Shown here: positions 32,960-39,630 of the stretch, piece after piece | Layout of the letters: every line of letters starts with the position of its first letter | Position numbering within the stretch: position 1 is the first letter of the stretch | Notes under the pieces: model-generated | Databases searched by the model: none | What the model saw: only the letters and a program-made list of their open reading frames with translations | What the model was told of the DNA's origin: nothing | NCBI GenBank assembly: GCA_951813605.1 | Contig: OX638379.1 | Location: forward strand, 496,001-560,000 | Length of the DNA: 64,000 nucleotides | Source of the DNA: an uncultured Bryobacterales bacterium | Lineage (GTDB): Bacteria > Acidobacteriota > Terriglobia > Bryobacterales > UBA6623 | Reading direction: 5' to 3' | Position numbers and translations under genes: made by a program

Positions 32960-33364
32960 ATGTCGAAGGAGCCCTTGGAAAGCAACGTCATCGTTCGGCC
33001 CGCGAAACGAGGTGAGATGCTGCGGATTCGCGAGTTAATCGCCTTGTTTCCCGACGAACTTGTGCAGAATGAGATTCCCCGTATCCCGTCATTCTTCGTG
33101 GCCGAACATCGCGGCAAGATAGTTGGCTGCTGCGCTTTGCAGGTGTATTCGCGAAGGCTGGCTGAAGTACGTAGCTTGGCTGTTCAGCCGGATTACAGCG
33201 GCCAGGGCATCGCCGCACGCTTGGTGGACGCTTGCCGGAAGCGCGGGGGCGAGCGCCGCGTGAAGCAGCTCTTAGCCGTCACCAGCGAACCAGCGTTTTT
33301 CGAACGCCGCGGGTTTACTGTCCACTCGGGTTGGAAGACCGCGCTGTTCGCCAGTCTTGATTAA
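32960..33364 (+). CDS. GNAT-family N-acetyltransferase
   Basis: 134 residues with the acetyl-CoA-binding fold. VRSLAVQPDYSGQGIAARLV is the conserved V-x-Q/R-x-x-G-x-G/A loop, and the terminal FFERRGFTVHSGWKTALF is the usual beta-bulge end. The first part, AKRGEMLRIRELIALFPDE, resembles ArgA-type N-acetylglutamate synthase stand-alone acetyltransferases, but the substrate is not clear. Monocistronic. Confidence 0.85.
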   Translation: MSKEPLESNVIVRPAKRGEMLRIRELIALFPDELVQNEIPRIPSFFVAEHRGKIVGCCALQVYSRRLAEVRSLAVQPDYSGQGIAARLVDACRKRGGERRVKQLLAVTSEPAFFERRGFTVHSGWKTALFASLD

Positions 33365-33981
33365 CGGTCGTAATCTACGTCCGGGCGGATCGACCACGGC
33401 CTCCCCTGTGGTTCGTCCGCCTTTCCCTTGGTAGCGAGTGCCATTCGCCGCGCGGGTCGCCACGCGTCGCCAGAGGGTTTTAATTGCAACTGGTATCACA
33501 AATGATGAAACAGCGAGATTGAGCGAGAATGATCAATCGAGTGACATTTGAATACAAACTATTGATATAAGAGACTGTAATTGGATTTCGGCTCGGCGCA
33601 CCAGGGGACGATCAATGGAATCGTCAAGATATTATTGACATGTAGTCGAAATTATGTCGATGCTTGGGCATGAGTCTCGTCGTGCGATTCACTGCGAAAT
33701 CGCACCGATCGTCCGAGAAACAAAGGGGAAATCGAAATGTTCAGACAATCGGAACGGTCCAGCAGCGAAGCGACGCTGTTGCAACAAGCCGTTTGACGCG
33801 TACGGCGGATCGTGACAGCGCTTGTCATCAGGACCAGCCTGACGGCGTTCCTGTCCTTGCCTAGTCCTAGCCCGGGCGGCACGTATGGGAATCAGCCCAA
33901 CGTTGAGATACTACTCGACCAGGCGAGGGCCCACCGGAGCCACTATCCGCCGAGTTTCCAGGATTTCGCAGCAATCTGGCG
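33365..33981. other. Intergenic stretch with an AT-rich island at about 33480-33660
   Basis: Flanks the ThuA remnant. From roughly 33480 to 33660 the composition shifts to AT-rich (for example TACAAACTATTGATATAAGA, TATTATTGACATG), unlike the GC-rich rest of the window. I see no gene. It may hold promoters or be imported DNA; no hairpin terminator recognised. Confidence 0.5.
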
Positions 33982-35156
33982 GTGAGCAACGATGGCGAGC
34001 TTCATCAGGTCTTGATCTCAGGCGACGAGGAGTACCGCCCGGAAGGGGGCCTCGCGATGCTGGCCAGAACGCTGTCGACGCTGCATGGCTTCCGTTGCAC
34101 GGTGCTGTTCGCCGTAGACTGCGAGACTGGCATCGTCAACCCGCACGTAAACACCAACATTCCTGGTTCGGGAAGCCTCGACGACACGGACCTGATGATC
34201 ATTCTGGCGCGGTGGCGGGTCTTGCCGGACGACCAGACGGAGCCGATCGATCGCTTCGTCATGTCCGGCAAGCCGGTCATTGCCTTGCGTACCGCCACGC
34301 ATGCCTCCGCCCCGAAGCCCGAGGTTCATAGGCAGGTCCGCGCCTATCTCCGAAACGCTTCGCGTGCCGACGATCCCGAGTCAGTGCCGGTGCCGGACAT
34401 CGCGCCCAATGCATGGAGCGCGTACGACCACTATGACGACGGCTACACCGGGCCCATGGAGGCATGCCGAGATGGGTTCGGCCGCCTCGTGGTGGGAGAG
34501 CGCGCTGGGTCGCGCACCATGGCCGTCACAAGCACGAGTCGGCCCGAGGCATCATCGCCGAAGGGGCCGCCGATCATCCGATTCTACGCGGGGTTGACCC
34601 AGACGGAATCTGGAGTTCCGCAAATGTGTATACGGTCCGGCTCCCGCTCCCTGTCGACTCGATGCCGCTGGTCTATGGCAAGGTGATGGCTCGCGCCGGC
34701 GAATACGACGACGAGGACTCGCATCACGGAATGCGACCTTCCGACGACGAGCCGGCCGATAGCAAGAACGATCCCTTGATGCCGGTCGTATGAACCAAGA
34801 CTTGCCAGCTTCCGCGAGGATAGCCAGGCAGGGTACTGTCCACGACGCTCGGGACCTCGACGGACCTGCTCGAAGCGGGCGTCCGCCAACTGCTCGTGAA
34901 TTGCGTGCTCTGGGCACTCGAGATGGAGGACGCCATCACTGCTGACGGTGCGGCATCTGAACTTGTCGGCGAGTTCAACTTAACGAGGTTCAACAATCAT
35001 CCGACGGAGTACTGGGTGGAGCGGCCTGCGAAGCCGGCTGACTTCCGGCAGGCGGGGAGTCAGTTGCGTAGTGCGGCGAGCGCCCGGACGGCGTCCTCGC
35101 CGGTCGGCGTCTGGAACGCCCGGAGCCCGAAATTCGGCAGAGCTGCGAATATATGA
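33982..35156 (+). pseudogene. ThuA-like (trehalose utilisation) gene, one frameshift and two stop codons
   Basis: ThuA-like proteins have a glutamine-amidotransferase-type fold, role not fixed. The first frame (from GTG 33982) gives LISGDEEYRPEGGLAMLART, HGFRCTVLFAVDCETG and SGKPVIALRTATHAS, all ThuA-like, and then breaks near 34500. The next frame continues WVAHHGRHKHESARGIIAEG, ADHPILRGVDPDGIWSSAN and KNDPLMPVV, where a TGA (34791) replaces an expected Trp. It continues TKTCQLPRG with a TAG at 34821 (a Lys or Gln codon in relatives), then GRVLSTTLGTSTDLLEAGVR and VGEFNLTRFNNHPTEYWVER. Both stops are single-base changes from a sense codon. This is therefore genuine decay and not only indel error. 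The tail overlaps the mscS 3' end. Confidence 0.85.
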
Positions 35157-36313
35157 TCGAAGATGTCCGATTGGATGCCTTCGTACGCTACCCATTCCTT
35201 GTTGGCGCTGAAGGCGTACAACTCGAGTGGCAAGCCGTGCTCGCTCGGCTGGAGTTGCCTTACGATCAGAGTCAGCTCCTCGTTGATCATTGGGTGCGAG
35301 CGCAAATAGCCCACGAGGTACTGCCGGAACACGCCCACATTGGTCAGGCGACGCCCGTTTGCAAGCACTGACTCGGTCACTCCGTGCTTCCGGTTGTATT
35401 CCGAGAGCTCCGCTTCCTTGATCTCGACATACTCTCGAAGCAAGTCGATCTCCTTGAACTGGGCGATCATCTTGGCATCGCAAAACTGCACACTGGAGAT
35501 ATCGAGGTAAATCGAGCGCTTGATCCTTCGGCCGCCGGACTCGGACATGCCTCGCCAGTTCTTGAAGCTTCCCGTGACGAGTGAGTAGGTCGGGATCATC
35601 GAAATCGTTTTGTCCCAATTCTGGACCTTCACGGTGTTCAGGGTGATCGCTATAACGTCCCCATCGGCACCGTATTGGGGCATTTCAATCCAGTCGCCCA
35701 CCCGCACCATGTCATTGCTCACCAACTGGACGCCTGCTACCAAGCCTTGGATACTGTCCTTGGAGATGAGCAGCAGGATTGCGGTCATCGCCCCCAGACC
35801 GCTCAATAGGAGCACCGGCGATTGGCCGGTCACGATCGAGACCGCGATGATCACAAACGCCGACACCAGCAGGATCCGGACAACTTGGACATAGACCAGG
35901 ATCGGGGCCCGGCGCGCGAGATCGTAGGTGTTGTAGATGTCCAGGCCGACAGACAGAACCACGTTTGCAGTTGCCAGGACAGCTGCCAGCATGTAAATCT
36001 CGGCCCCCCGGCGCGCCCACATGACCACGGCTTCCGACGTCACTGCGAGCGGCGCCAGCGCGTGGATCACGATTGCCGGCACTACATGAGCGAACCGCCT
36101 GAAGGCCTTTCTTTCTACCAGCCTGTCATCCCAGTGCGTTCGCGTCTTGGCTGCCATCCGCTGGATCAAGCGGACCAAGCTCTTCTGAGCTACGCGGTAG
36201 GCGAAAAAGGCAGTCAGTACCAGTCCCACGATGTCCAGCGCGCTCATTGTCGCTGCAGCCGTGTCTGGGTCCATGCCCCAGGCAAGAAGTTGCGACTGAA
36301 TCCGATCGATCAT
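35060..36313 (-). CDS. Mechanosensitive channel, MscS family (YbdG-like)
   Basis: Small-conductance mechanosensitive channel of 417 residues. Four to five membrane segments lie in the first 190 residues. The pore-and-beta region follows as LISKDSIQGLVAGVQLVSND, then VGDWIEMPQYGADGDV and TLNTVKVQNWDKTISMIPTY, the MscS-beta domain. The stretch TYSLVTGSFKNWRGMSESGG is like the E. coli YbdG subgroup. The start at 36313 (ATG) is preceded by no strong ribosome site. The intact frame contrasts with decayed genes on both sides. Confidence 0.93.
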   Translation of the reverse strand: MIDRIQSQLLAWGMDPDTAAATMSALDIVGLVLTAFFAYRVAQKSLVRLIQRMAAKTRTHWDDRLVERKAFRRFAHVVPAIVIHALAPLAVTSEAVVMWARRGAEIYMLAAVLATANVVLSVGLDIYNTYDLARRAPILVYVQVVRILLVSAFVIIAVSIVTGQSPVLLLSGLGAMTAILLLISKDSIQGLVAGVQLVSNDMVRVGDWIEMPQYGADGDVIAITLNTVKVQNWDKTISMIPTYSLVTGSFKNWRGMSESGGRRIKRSIYLDISSVQFCDAKMIAQFKEIDLLREYVEIKEAELSEYNRKHGVTESVLANGRRLTNVGVFRQYLVGYLRSHPMINEELTLIVRQLQPSEHGLPLELYAFSANKEWVAYEGIQSDIFDHIFAALPNFGLRAFQTPTGEDAVRALAALRN

Positions 36314-36388
36314 TGGTCCGTTCTTAAGATGAATACCACAAGGCTTGCGCCCGAAAGCCTATCCGTGTCGAGTACGCGCTTGCCGGTC

Positions 36389-36680
36389 CTACGTGTCCAA
36401 GTGCAGCCTGCACACGACCCCGACATCGTCGCAGTGCCACATCCATCCGTCGTGAATCGTCATTCCATGAGGCAACGGGTCGGTGTCCGCAAGCTGGATC
36501 TTGGCTCGGTCTCGCCTGTCTAGGGATCAATGCGGTAGAACGCGTTGTCGTTGGACCCCGCGCACCAGAGCCAGCGGCCTTCCCAGCCCAGGCCGTGCGG
36601 CCTGTTGCCCGCGGTAGCGAATTCTTCTCGAGCTGGAAAGGTCCTGGATCGATTCGGTAAATCTGCTGTGCCGGGGCTGG
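36389..36680 (-). pseudogene. Remnant of a beta-propeller (6-bladed, Vgb/glutaminyl-cyclase-like) protein
   Basis: Only the end of a gene remains. One minus frame gives RPHGLGWEGRWLWCAGSNDN and AFYRIDP, closed by a TAG at 36520. The next frame gives AKIQLADTDPLPHGMTIHDG then WMWHCDDVGVVCRLHLD, the family's last blade, ending at a stop at 36389. In relatives YRIDP is followed by ETGE; here TAG replaces the Glu codon and one base is lost a few codons later. Upstream of about 36680 the similarity stops. Inference: a dead, truncated propeller gene, antiparallel to the DinB remnant beside it. Confidence 0.65.
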
Positions 36681-36705
36681 AGGTGCCAGGGGGCTGCGCC
36701 TCGGG

Positions 36706-36900
36706 GTGGTCCAGGCCACAGCCCGCGAAGCGATCTCCGCAATGAATGACGCCGATCTCGACGCGTCCGTTCCGGCCAACGAGCGACTCAAGATCCGGGA
36801 TGTGCAGTCGCAAATCGAGTTCATGGTGTGGCACGATTCGCACCATGCGGCGCAGCTGGGAGCGATCGTCAACACTTACAAGCAGAGCCTCGGCGGCTAG
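36706..36900 (+). pseudogene. C-terminal fragment of a DinB-like four-helix protein
   Basis: Sixty-four residues: MVQATAREAISAMNDADLDA then IEFMVWHDSHHAAQLGAIVN. The pair of histidines in HDSHHAAQLG is the last metal-binding helix of DinB/YfiT-type proteins; the first three helices, with the other ligand, are missing upstream. The GTG at 36706 is not a native start. This is a remnant, probably joined to the propeller remnant by a deletion. DinB-family proteins act as damage-inducible metal-dependent transferases, but nothing indicates this piece works. Confidence 0.65.
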
Positions 36901-36926
36901 GCGGCCGATTCCACCCTGTCGCACGC

Positions 36927-37289
36927 CTATTGCGGGTCTGGCTTGGATCCCTCGTTCCAGTAGATCTTGAGATTGTGGGTACCGTGCCCGGCGGCGATGA
37001 TTTCGCTCCGCCCGTCGCCGTTCAGGACCGCGACCGTGAGGTCTTCGGTTGCCATGCATCCGCAGTCGACGATCTGCACCTTTCCCGTTCCGGGGTCGTA
37101 GACTCCGACGCCCCGGCGGTCGCAAGGCATGCTTCCCTTGAGTCGCCAACCGAACGCGAGTTTTTCGTCCTCGTCGCCGTCAAGATCAGCGGCCCAGAGA
37201 GCGTGGCCGCCACCGACTCGCGTGACCACCGCGCTCCAGATCCATCGTTGCCGGGGATTCGCGGGTTCGGCGTAAATCACGATATTGTT
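36927..37289 (-). pseudogene. C-terminal end of an FG-GAP/VCBS-repeat protein, cut by the IS1595 element
   Basis: Reads VTRVGGGHALWAADLDGDED then VYDPGTGKVQIVDCGCMATE and LTVAVLNGDGRSEIIAAGHG, the Ca-binding DLDGDxD and VLNGDGxxEII loops of beta-propeller FG-GAP repeats. The frame opens straight out of the element's left end (NNIVIYAEP) and has no start of its own. The N-terminal part is not found on the other side of the element. Whole relatives are secreted and several hundred residues long. Confidence 0.72.
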
Positions 37290-37314
37290 GGGGCTTATAT
37301 ACGTGTTTACCCAA
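37290..37314. repeat. Left terminal inverted repeat of the IS1595-family element
   Basis: Starts GGGGCTTATATACGTG and is a perfect inverted match to 38736-38760. Confidence 0.88.
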
Positions 37315-37338
37315 GCCCCGCTTGGCCGACACGGGCCG

Positions 37339-37503
37339 TTAGCGCTTACGGTTCGATGTTTTCAGGAAGTCCCAGTCCTTCTTGGGAGGCCCTGCCATGA
37401 TCGCCCGAGCGATGTTCTCGGGCGTGTCCGGGATGGGGCGCGGCATCTTGTACTTCACCGGTCGCCCGCGGTTGCGCTTGCCTGGCCCTCGGTTCTTGAG
37501 CAT
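37339..37503 (-). CDS. IS1595-associated accessory small protein
   Basis: Fifty-four residues from ATG 37503: MLKNRGPGKRNRGRPVKYKM, then PIPDTPENIARAIMAGPPKK and DWDFLKT. Basic at the start, with a conserved-looking IPDTPENIARAI core. I recall small ORFs of this type beside some IS1595 transposases, which is weak evidence; no function known. It lies inside the element, between the transposase end and the left inverted repeat, on the same strand, so it is an accessory gene and not a host gene. Confidence 0.7.
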   Translation of the reverse strand: MLKNRGPGKRNRGRPVKYKMPRPIPDTPENIARAIMAGPPKKDWDFLKTSNRKR

Positions 37504-37714
37504 GTGCCTGCCTGCTTGCGACTGTAGCCCCTGCCCACGCAGCCTGACCACCAACGTGGCCCGATGCATCGTTCCCCTGGTGGGATTGCACGCATTGCCT
37601 GGCAGCCGGAGATCGTCCCGGTGGTCGAGAGCAGGTCTACGGAGTCCGGGTTGATCCCGCGCATGCCATCGAGGTTGTCCCCGGGGAACGGGGCGCGGTT
37701 CCCGGCGCTCCAGC

Positions 37715-38638
37715 TCACGCCGTGATCTCGCGTGCGCCCGAAGACAGTCCGTTACCCTTGACCAGGCTCTTGCAGCGGCGTTGCTTGCCGTGCATGGTGG
37801 CAGCCAGCGCGCACATCTGCTGGATCGTATCCAGATCGCGAAAATTGTGCCGTCCGGCGAACTCGTTCACATAGCGGTCGAGGTGCTTGCAGCTCATCTT
37901 GTGGAATGTGCCGTAGTAGCCGCGTCCCAGCATCGATCAGAACGACTCCATGCCGTTGACGTGAGCCTTGCCCCTCACGTACTCGCCCGCGCTGTGTTTG
38001 ACGGACTCGTGATGCGCCAGGCTGCCGTACAGGCTGCCTTCGTCCGCGTACACCGGGGCGTCCGGATCGGGCGTCTCCCCGAGGATTCCTCCGACCGTGA
38101 CTTTGGTCACGCTCTCTACCGGCGTGGCTGCAGTCCTGTTGGAATTCCGGTCTTCCACTCCGACCACGGCTGTCTTGCCGACCGATCCACGCCCGGCCTT
38201 CAACTTCTTCGACTCGCGCTTGTTCCTCTCCTTGCCGCCGATGCAGACCTCGTCCATTGCCACCGGGCCGGAGAACCGCGCACCCCTCGCGCGCCATGTC
38301 TCGCGGATGCGATGCGCGAGGAACCAGGCCGTCTTCCGGGTCACGCCCAGGTCCCGGTGGATCTTCATGCTGGAGGTTTCCTTGAGCCCGGTCGAGAGCA
38401 GGTACAGGGCAATCGCCCAAGTCTGGAGACCGAGCTTGGAGTTGTGCATGAGCGTCCCGGTCTTGACCGAGAAGTCCTTGGGGCAGTCCCGGCAGCGGTA
38501 CGGCTGCGGCTTGCGCGTTGGTCGCTCCTGCACGTTCAGCGATCCGCAATCCGGACAGCATGCACCAGCAGGCCAGCGGTGCTTGACGAACCATTCCTCA
38601 GCCGTGGCATCGTCCGGGAATATGCGCGTGATGTCCAC
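37715..38638 (-). pseudogene. IS1595/ISXO2-like transposase with an internal stop
   Basis: Starts MDITRIFPDDATAEEWF with a zinc-ribbon, CCPDCGSLN ... YRCRDCPKDFSVKTGTLMHN, followed by the ISXO2 DDE(N/K) domain: GPVAMDEVCIGGKERNKR, with the first Asp, TKVTVGGILGE, APVYADEGSLYGSLAHHESV with the second Asp, and YVRGKAHVNGMESF. There the frame meets TGA at 37937 where relatives have Trp (ESFWSMLKRGY); the same frame continues SMLGRGYYGTFHKMSCKHLD then RYVNEFAGRHNFRDLDTIQQ to a stop at 37715. Unless the TGA is read through, the protein is truncated at 233 residues and lacks its last catalytic acid region. The element is therefore probably immobile. Confidence 0.85.
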
Positions 38639-38735
38639 CAGCGAAAGTCCTTTGCGTTCACGGCGCCTGGGTGCCTAGCGTGCCATTCTTATGTACTCAG
38701 TTCACCCAAAAGTGGGGCCGTGCGTGAAGCGGGTT

Positions 38736-38760
38736 TTGGGTAAACACGTATATAAGCCCC
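38736..38760. repeat. Right terminal inverted repeat of the IS1595-family element
   Basis: Reverse complement of the left repeat, ending TATAAGCCCC. Confidence 0.88.
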
Positions 38761-39062
38761 AAATTCTTGGGGTGTGGTGGGCGACGGACCGTATCGGGGG
38801 CTTCCGTACGAACCTCCGCGGCACCTATTTCAGCAAGTGGCCGATCTCCGGGCGGGCCGGGACCTTTGTAGGCGACGCGCACCAGATTTGGGACTGGTAC
38901 GCGGCAAAGCCGATCCGGGACAGATTCGAACTGTACTTCGCACTAGGCAACCTCCTTGACTCCGTGGATCCAAACCTCGGGGGCGATCGCCCCACGCTTT
39001 TCCGGGCCGACTTTGGCCGGACGATCCGCGGCGGGATTCGCTGGAACATCGGAGCGGAGTAA
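38761..39062 (+). pseudogene. C-terminal fragment of a TonB-dependent receptor
   Basis: The frame opens directly out of the element's right end, reads RTNLRGTYFSKWPISGRAGT, FELYFALGNLLDSVDPNLGG, then RADFGRTIRGGIRWNIGAE and stops at 39062. The terminal pattern GRTIRGGIRWNI is the last barrel strand with its aromatic residues. The N-terminal plug and most of the barrel are missing, so the piece cannot work. The fragment has no start of its own. Inference: truncated by the same event that left the IS1595 element here. Confidence 0.68.
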
Positions 39063-39138
39063 GTCTAATCGGTCGCAGAGTCAGCTGTGCCAACATAGAT
39101 GCAGGAATCGCGAGGTCCTCGCGACATCGCTGTAGGGA

Positions 39139-39630
39139 ATGCACTGGAACCGGACGATTCTCGGCGGTGGCTTGCTTGGTGGCGTGGTTGTTGCCGGGCT
39201 GATCATTGTCTACAACTGGGGCGCGACGCCACGGCTCGAGGGCGAGATAACCGGGGTGCGGACGCTCGGAATGGACGGCTCCAGTTCCGTAGCGATCGTC
39301 AATTTCGCGGCCTCGAACTCCTCGAACTACGAGCTGTGGATCAATCGTCGGGAACTAGCGATCATCGGCCAGGGGGGGCATCAGTTCGAAGGGCGCATCC
39401 TCAGCGTGTTCGACATCCAGCAGCTGTTCAAGTACTTTCCGGCGCTTGGCGGAATGCGTGACGAGCCCTTGATCGACAATCGGCATCTCGCTCCGGGCGA
39501 GGCGGTGCGGGGCCTTGTCGCGGCCCGATTCGAGGTGCCCAAGCACGAGCTGGACATACGCCAGGAGATCGTCTTCCGGACGGTGGATAACAAGAATCGC
39601 AAGACCGCTCTGCGCTTGGAGTCGCAATGA
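39139..39630 (+). CDS. Membrane-anchored protein of unknown function
   Basis: 163 residues: one N-terminal membrane segment (TILGGGLLGGVVVAGLIIVY) and a beta-rich soluble part facing the periplasm, with FAASNSSNYELWINRRELAI and RHLAPGEAVRGLVAARFEVP, a late-embryogenesis/Ig-like appearance. I do not recognise a named family. ATG at 39139. It ends 12 bases before the NifU-like gene, so the two may be co-transcribed, but nothing in the sequence ties their functions. Confidence 0.65.
   Translation: MHWNRTILGGGLLGGVVVAGLIIVYNWGATPRLEGEITGVRTLGMDGSSSVAIVNFAASNSSNYELWINRRELAIIGQGGHQFEGRILSVFDIQQLFKYFPALGGMRDEPLIDNRHLAPGEAVRGLVAARFEVPKHELDIRQEIVFRTVDNKNRKTALRLESQ

Follow-up and report, generated by a model that had tools for sequence, protein, structure and literature searches.

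A degenerate IS1595-family element at the seam between two truncated genes in an uncultured Bryobacterales bacterium

Copies of insertion sequences at deletion or recombination junctions are a known kind of genomic scar, in which an element edges truncated genes and no clean target duplication remains. The closest described counterpart of the element reported here is ISApl4, a 712-bp member of the IS1595 family with GGGG terminal bases. According to its published description, all insertions but four carry 8-bp repeats that are preferably A/T-rich, and the four exceptions belong to a compound transposon and to an inversion (PMC12561309).

We analyzed a 64,000-nucleotide stretch (hereafter the window; G000:C1:496001-560000) of a 6.19-Mb genome that is 98.6% complete and assembled as a single contig. 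An initial annotation had placed an IS1595-type element between an FG-GAP gene on the minus strand and the end of a TonB receptor gene on the plus strand, and inverted repeats, family profiles and flanking homology all agree with this placement. The seam thus formed shares with insertion-sequence scars both the truncated genes at the element's edges and the lack of a clean duplication. It differs from the usual scar in its left partner, a probably acquired block that has also lost DNA where no element is present.

The element spans positions 37290–38760 (1,471 bp, coding strand minus). Its inverted repeats were detected at 37288–37323 and 38727–38762 as 36-nucleotide segments that are 94% complementary; two bases were trimmed from each to reach the GGGG and CCCC ends, giving a left repeat at 37290–37323 and a right repeat at 38727–38760 (plus-strand coordinates). 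The ends were set in this way because the perfect duplications of related elements, which come from the same genome and from the congener G004 and have the same GGGG...CCCC ends, sit just outside those bases. The transposase frame (37715–38638, minus strand, 307 codons) is interrupted by one in-frame TGA at 37937–37939. Its open N-terminal part (37937–38638) scores 63.4 bits against PF12762 (cut-off 27), 32.1 bits against PF12760 (cut-off 25.4) and 123.2 bits against the IS1595 model NF033547 (cut-off 75). The copy therefore carries the ISXO2-like DDE transposase domain and zinc ribbon of the IS1595 family, together with terminal inverted repeats that start with GGGG as in ISApl4. The intact transposase frame of an autonomous IS1595 element is lacking, making this a degenerate copy that is still homologous to the family.

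Besides the GGGG terminal bases, the window element and ISApl4 have in common a DDE transposase with a DE / VYxD / HxNGxE pattern (motifs compared by eye with the published pattern), and A+T-rich 8-bp targets are typical of ISApl4 and of the window element's relatives alike. However, the window element is the longer of the two, its transposase frame is broken by the TGA, its flanks match at only six of eight positions, and it contains an additional open reading frame of 54 amino acids (37339–37503, minus strand). This frame is open in both full copies of the element, with 92.6% amino acid identity between them, and has no match in Pfam or NCBIfam. It encodes an RGRP motif and PIPDTPENIARAI. 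At C1:268851 (L026) there is a relative that is 54% identical, and a piece of 21 residues containing a stop lies near C1:2158957 (L004).

The second full copy, at C1:1652202 (L002), is 86% identical to the window element and also has a broken transposase; its flanks agree at only two of eight positions (by eye). Along the element, identity between the two copies ranges between 76.7 and 91.3% and dips near 37590–37814. The genome search for IS1595-type matches scored 40 of 62 candidates, such that weak fragments may be missed. An assembly chimera through the element is unlikely, given that the genome is one contig and that the sole other full-length match is only 86% identical.

On the left, the C-terminal 120 codons of the FG-GAP gene (36927–37289, minus strand, PF13517) run up to the element. 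They are 79% identical to the G004 gene and correspond to 120 of the 398 residues of its open reading frame (∼30%). Homology to intact FG-GAP genes continues up to 37289, the base adjoining the element, and the left flanking 8-mer ATATTGTT (37282–37289, plus strand) is native FG-GAP sequence. On the right, the C-terminal ∼96 codons of a TonB-dependent receptor gene (38772–39062, plus strand) are 68% identical to their counterpart in G014 and make up ∼12% of a gene of ∼800 codons. The tail itself has no Pfam match; it aligns to the C-termini of open frames of 745–877 amino acids in relatives, and the G014 frame is a TonB receptor according to Pfam. In named records, the TonB relatives (16 loci) are metagenome-assembled and mostly titled Bryobacterales, Terriglobia, Acidobacteria or Acidobacteriota. 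Another remnant of a TonB gene from this group, located at G000:C1:5345025-5346111 (L118), retains N- and C-terminal parts and lacks the middle; no IS1595-type match was found within 280 kb of it among the 40 of 62 candidates scored.

The left flank is native to its gene up to the element, whereas the first 11 bases of the right flank are not native in register: of the 11 bases that precede the start of TonB homology at 38772, AAATTCTTGGG, only three agree with the closest relative (by eye). All 16 loci have the codons NFR at the break, and the native sequence there is AACTTCCG in most of them, a poor fit to the A+T-rich targets. If a two-nucleotide insertion is allowed, AAATTCTTGGGG resembles the native TonB sequence AACTTCCGGG of some loci, and given this likeness the right flank could be derived from the TonB gene. 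The right flanking 8-mer AAATTCTT (38761–38768, plus strand) is identical to the left one at six of eight positions (by eye), and there is no clean 8-bp duplication.

These observations bear out the initial annotation with respect to the lack of a clean duplication and to the FG-GAP gene opening directly out of the element. The same had been said of the TonB gene, which indeed lies as a tail on the plus strand, with homology from 38772 onwards. The flanking genes had also been called halves of two dead genes; both are truncated, but the surviving portions are smaller than halves and retain open frames with no internal stops, such that "dead" applies only in the sense of truncated. With respect to selection, dN/dS for the FG-GAP remnant is 0.169, compared with 0.058–0.078 for intact copies (two comparisons). 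For the TonB tail it is 0.16–0.30 against four relatives and 0.19 between two intact ones, with no clear sign of relaxation. The span originally described begins at 36389, where we find debris of two further genes that had gone unmentioned.

This debris belongs to a larger patch (∼33365–39137) that occupies a variable slot between a GNAT acetyltransferase gene (32960–33364, plus strand, PF13508) and a gene for a 163-aa protein (39139–39630, plus strand), after which comes a NifU-like gene, as it does in relatives. In four of ten congeners (G002, G004, G007 and G008; 1.5-kb flanks) the GNAT gene lies at most 0.75 kb from the 163-aa gene, the gap in G004 being ∼0.74 kb. Two genes separate them in G001 and G005, identified by Pfam in G005 as PSD1/DUF1549 and DUF1501 and alike by sequence in G001; in the remaining four congeners, no GNAT gene was seen within 1.5 kb of the 163-aa gene. 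At its left margin, the patch contains unassigned DNA (33365–33942), and a query covering 33364–33999 gave no DNA matches in 20 relatives and only itself in its own genome. Outside the slot, a 467-aa IS1380 transposase open reading frame (NF033539; 40565–41968, plus strand) lies between the NifU-like gene and a transporter gene, which are neighbors in relatives such as G004.

Within the patch, 34000–37289 is collinear, up to the element edge, with a block of genes in G004 that lies between two genes we take to be rho and infB, with 82.5% nucleotide identity over the longest stretch (2,678 columns). The G004 block contains, in order, ThuA-like, MscS-type, SGL-like, two sulfatase, chromate transporter, DinB-like, FG-GAP and FAD-type oxidoreductase genes. 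Pfam supports the ThuA-like (29.4 bits, below the cut-off of 33.4), SGL-like, one sulfatase and the chromate transporter frames; the other names are those that we presume from the sequences. In the window, the ThuA-like gene survives as a remnant (33943–35048, plus strand; tblastn with the G004 frame) whose residues 40–224 and 224–405 fall in two frames, with a frameshift near 34503. Its first ∼39 codons are not recognized, and protein-level homology extends back to 33943. It is followed by an intact gene for an MscS-type mechanosensitive channel (35060–36313, minus strand, PF00924), which is 87% identical to the G004 protein and has a dN/dS of 0.126 against G004. Next is a frameshifted C-terminal remnant of the DUF6923/SGL-like gene (36392–36719, minus strand), recognized by tblastn, blastn and the Pfam assignment of the G004 gene. 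A deletion junction (36719–36724), established by blastn and the junction sequence, then leads directly into a C-terminal remnant of the presumably DinB-like gene (36724–36900, plus strand; named from a motif, with the remnant supported by its translation), which is collinear with the G004 block (L109) from 12138. At this junction ∼5.9 kb is gone relative to that block (L109 6282 to 12138), and no element is present.

The block sits between rho and infB across the genus, and at this usual place the genome carries a copy of its own (2.38–2.40 Mb; L110). The window fragment (∼33943–37289) is therefore an extra, partly decayed copy. Its identity to G004 is 81.5%, as against 72.8% to the own copy (three blocks, 1,868 columns, six sequences), and the tree built from the same alignment joins it with G004 at 100% ultrafast bootstrap support; the control tree is weakly supported (42) at one inner node. 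The own copy, at 73.4% identity, is no closer to G004 than are three congeners (72.8–74.2%). Synonymous divergence from G004 is 0.55 for the window mscS gene and 0.62 for the window FG-GAP gene; the FG-GAP genes of the own copy and of G007 are further away, at 1.9 and 2.1, respectively. Since the fragment is more similar to G004 than to the copy in its own genome, and as tree and synteny point the same way, we infer that it was probably acquired horizontally, in the direction from a G004-related bacterium as judged among 11 genomes of the genus. An ancient duplication followed by differential loss would be less economical.

The initial annotation had proposed that recombination between two copies, or an element-mediated deletion, removed the rest of both genes, and expected each missing N-terminal part beside another copy of the element. 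The genome searches found no such arrangement. The FG-GAP N-terminal part has two matches, in an intact ortholog at C1:2387732 (80% identity) and a paralog at 3859063 (34%). The TonB N-terminal part has 113 matches, and identity rises above 37% at just two places: it is 67% for an intact paralog at 2690249 and 61% for a remnant with an internal deletion at 5345272. The nearest IS1595-type match is more than 40 kb from all four of these FG-GAP and TonB places (40 of 62 candidates scored). With no N-terminal part beside a partner copy, the missing parts were most likely lost from the genome and not moved. The contrary case named at the outset, a relative in which the two genes are adjacent without the element, was absent from the loci examined: FG-GAP and TonB genes occur together at none of 19 other FG-GAP loci and none of 19 other TonB loci (flanks up to ∼1.5 kb), nor does an FG-GAP gene lie beside TonB at any of 20 larger TonB loci, some of which overlap the smaller set. 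These counts refer to the loci that were fetched, which are fewer than all the FG-GAP and TonB matches listed.

How much the imperfect flanks reveal can be gauged from related elements. Among nine complete ones, defined by both ends having matching inverted repeats (L003, L005, L007–L011, L132 and L137), five are flanked by perfect A+T-rich 8-bp duplications (L005, L010 and L011, and L132 and L137 of G004), whereas four have none (L003, L007, L008 and L009), all in the window's genome. The count leaves aside single-ended and fragmentary loci, as well as L002, whose left end is degenerate and whose flanks match at two of eight positions by eye. If the excess in FG-GAP dN/dS dates the insertion (0.061 per site by our own arithmetic, assuming that the remnant has been unconstrained since then), about one mismatch is expected between two duplicate copies, and the probability of two or more is 0.26. 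The 6/8 flanks are thus compatible with a worn duplication. As four of the nine relatives lack a duplication and modest decay fits the flanks, the missing clean duplication is not by itself evidence for recombination.

Two of the copies without duplications, L008 (C1:2640572) and L009 (C1:2626695), are inverted with respect to each other and ∼14 kb apart. Read in element orientation, they share TACCCAAA, the right 8-mer of L008 being the left 8-mer of L009. Judging from these sequences, an inversion between the copies is possible; joining their flanks gave no decisive reading frame. The right flank of L008 itself is 76% similar to part of L127, a G005 locus with an IS1595-type match, and the shared 8-mer is therefore only suggestive.

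With good confidence, the layout of the locus can be read as an extra, decaying block with the element at its seam and with the missing gene parts lost. How the seam formed is less certain, and the weights we attach to the possible routes are matters of judgement and were not computed. The route that we tentatively favor, at a little less than an even chance, combines a worn duplication with a deletion at its edge, and we infer the following order of events. A fragment of the rho-infB block from a G004-related bacterium would have entered the GNAT/163-aa slot, as identity, tree and synteny indicate. The element would then have inserted into the FG-GAP gene of this fragment, producing a normal A+T-rich 8-bp duplication, the two copies of which may have drifted to their present 6/8 match. 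A deletion just outside the right duplicate would have taken the remainder of the FG-GAP gene together with most of the TonB gene, thereby joining the element to the TonB tail, and a separate deletion involving no element would have removed the ∼5.9 kb inside the block.

This sequence of events is favored because the right 8-mer has the A+T richness of a true target, with seven of eight positions A or T, a level reached by only 0.28% of the 8-mers in the window, whereas the native TonB sequence at that place is not. Against it, the deletion must end ∼4 bp from the right duplicate, a coincidence unless the element promoted the deletion. A match at six or more of eight positions also arises in 20 of 351 pairs among 27 target words, some of which come from single-ended loci with less certain ends. 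In addition, the right flank could be TonB sequence if the two-nucleotide insertion is allowed, the TonB tail bears no sign of long decay, and the 2/8 flanks of the C1:1652202 copy demonstrate that copies of the element lacking a duplication exist.

The near-exact coincidence of element and seam favors two other routes. In one, homologous recombination between a copy of the element in an FG-GAP gene and another in a TonB gene would yield a hybrid element whose flanks are unlike. In favor of this route, the two 8-mers share the A+T richness of true targets; four of nine complete relatives likewise lack duplications, L008 and L009 with their shared 8-mer among them, and the copies of ISApl4 without repeats are those involved in a compound transposon and an inversion (PMC12561309). 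However, neither a reciprocal product nor a missing part beside another copy turned up in the genome searches (40 of 62 IS1595-type candidates scored), although the reciprocal may have been lost. The NFR codons conserved at all 16 TonB loci are hard to reconcile with a window flank that agrees at three of 11 bases in register, identity to the other full copy shows no clear switch along the element, and joining flanks did not confirm the L008/L009 parallel. We therefore consider two-copy recombination possible but unlikely. In the other route, the transposase of an FG-GAP-resident element would have attacked a TonB site on the same molecule and deleted the interval. Such an adjacent deletion accounts for the exact native edge, for the lack of a duplication and for the missing parts having been lost and not relocated. 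It requires an FG-GAP gene and a TonB gene close together, an arrangement seen at none of the loci examined, and a native TonB target that matches the A+T-rich targets poorly, and on balance it is distinctly improbable.

Two further possibilities carry little weight. The element might have acted as portable homology, with a resident copy in a TonB gene beside the 163-aa gene recombining with an FG-GAP copy on an incoming G004-like fragment whose other end was joined illegitimately, in which case the capture would have given the genome a whole MscS-type gene in addition to its own broken one; we regard this as a long shot. Still less credible is insertion beside a pre-existing junction of FG-GAP and TonB debris, with the seam independent of the element: the block does contain at least one junction without an element (36719/36724) and two frameshifted genes, and the duplication could be worn in this case too, but the insertion would have had to fall by chance within ∼4 bp of the junction.

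The initial proposal of recombination or element-mediated deletion keeps its basis in an element that lies at the seam, in gene remainders that are missing from its sides and in the separate location of the two genes at all the relatives' loci examined, while the unlike 8-mers that were offered for it are no proof. That reading was right in part but incomplete, as the left side is an extra, probably foreign block with a deletion of its own. Taken as a whole, a dead IS1595 copy at the seam of a decaying, probably acquired patch is the best explanation of the locus, and we give it an even chance of being correct. With both the element and this type of scar already known, the seam looks like an ordinary product of genome shuffling and not like a new system. 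It serves as a warning that unlike flanks alone do not demonstrate recombination. The one biologically suggestive feature is the probably acquired MscS-type gene, which alone among the genes recognized in the left fragment is whole, while of its ortholog at the usual place (L110, C1:2.396 Mb) only C-terminal scraps are recognizable. More generally, the locus is an example of an insertion sequence marking the seam of a decaying, probably acquired block, here in a lineage with Acidobacteriota as its nearest named relatives.
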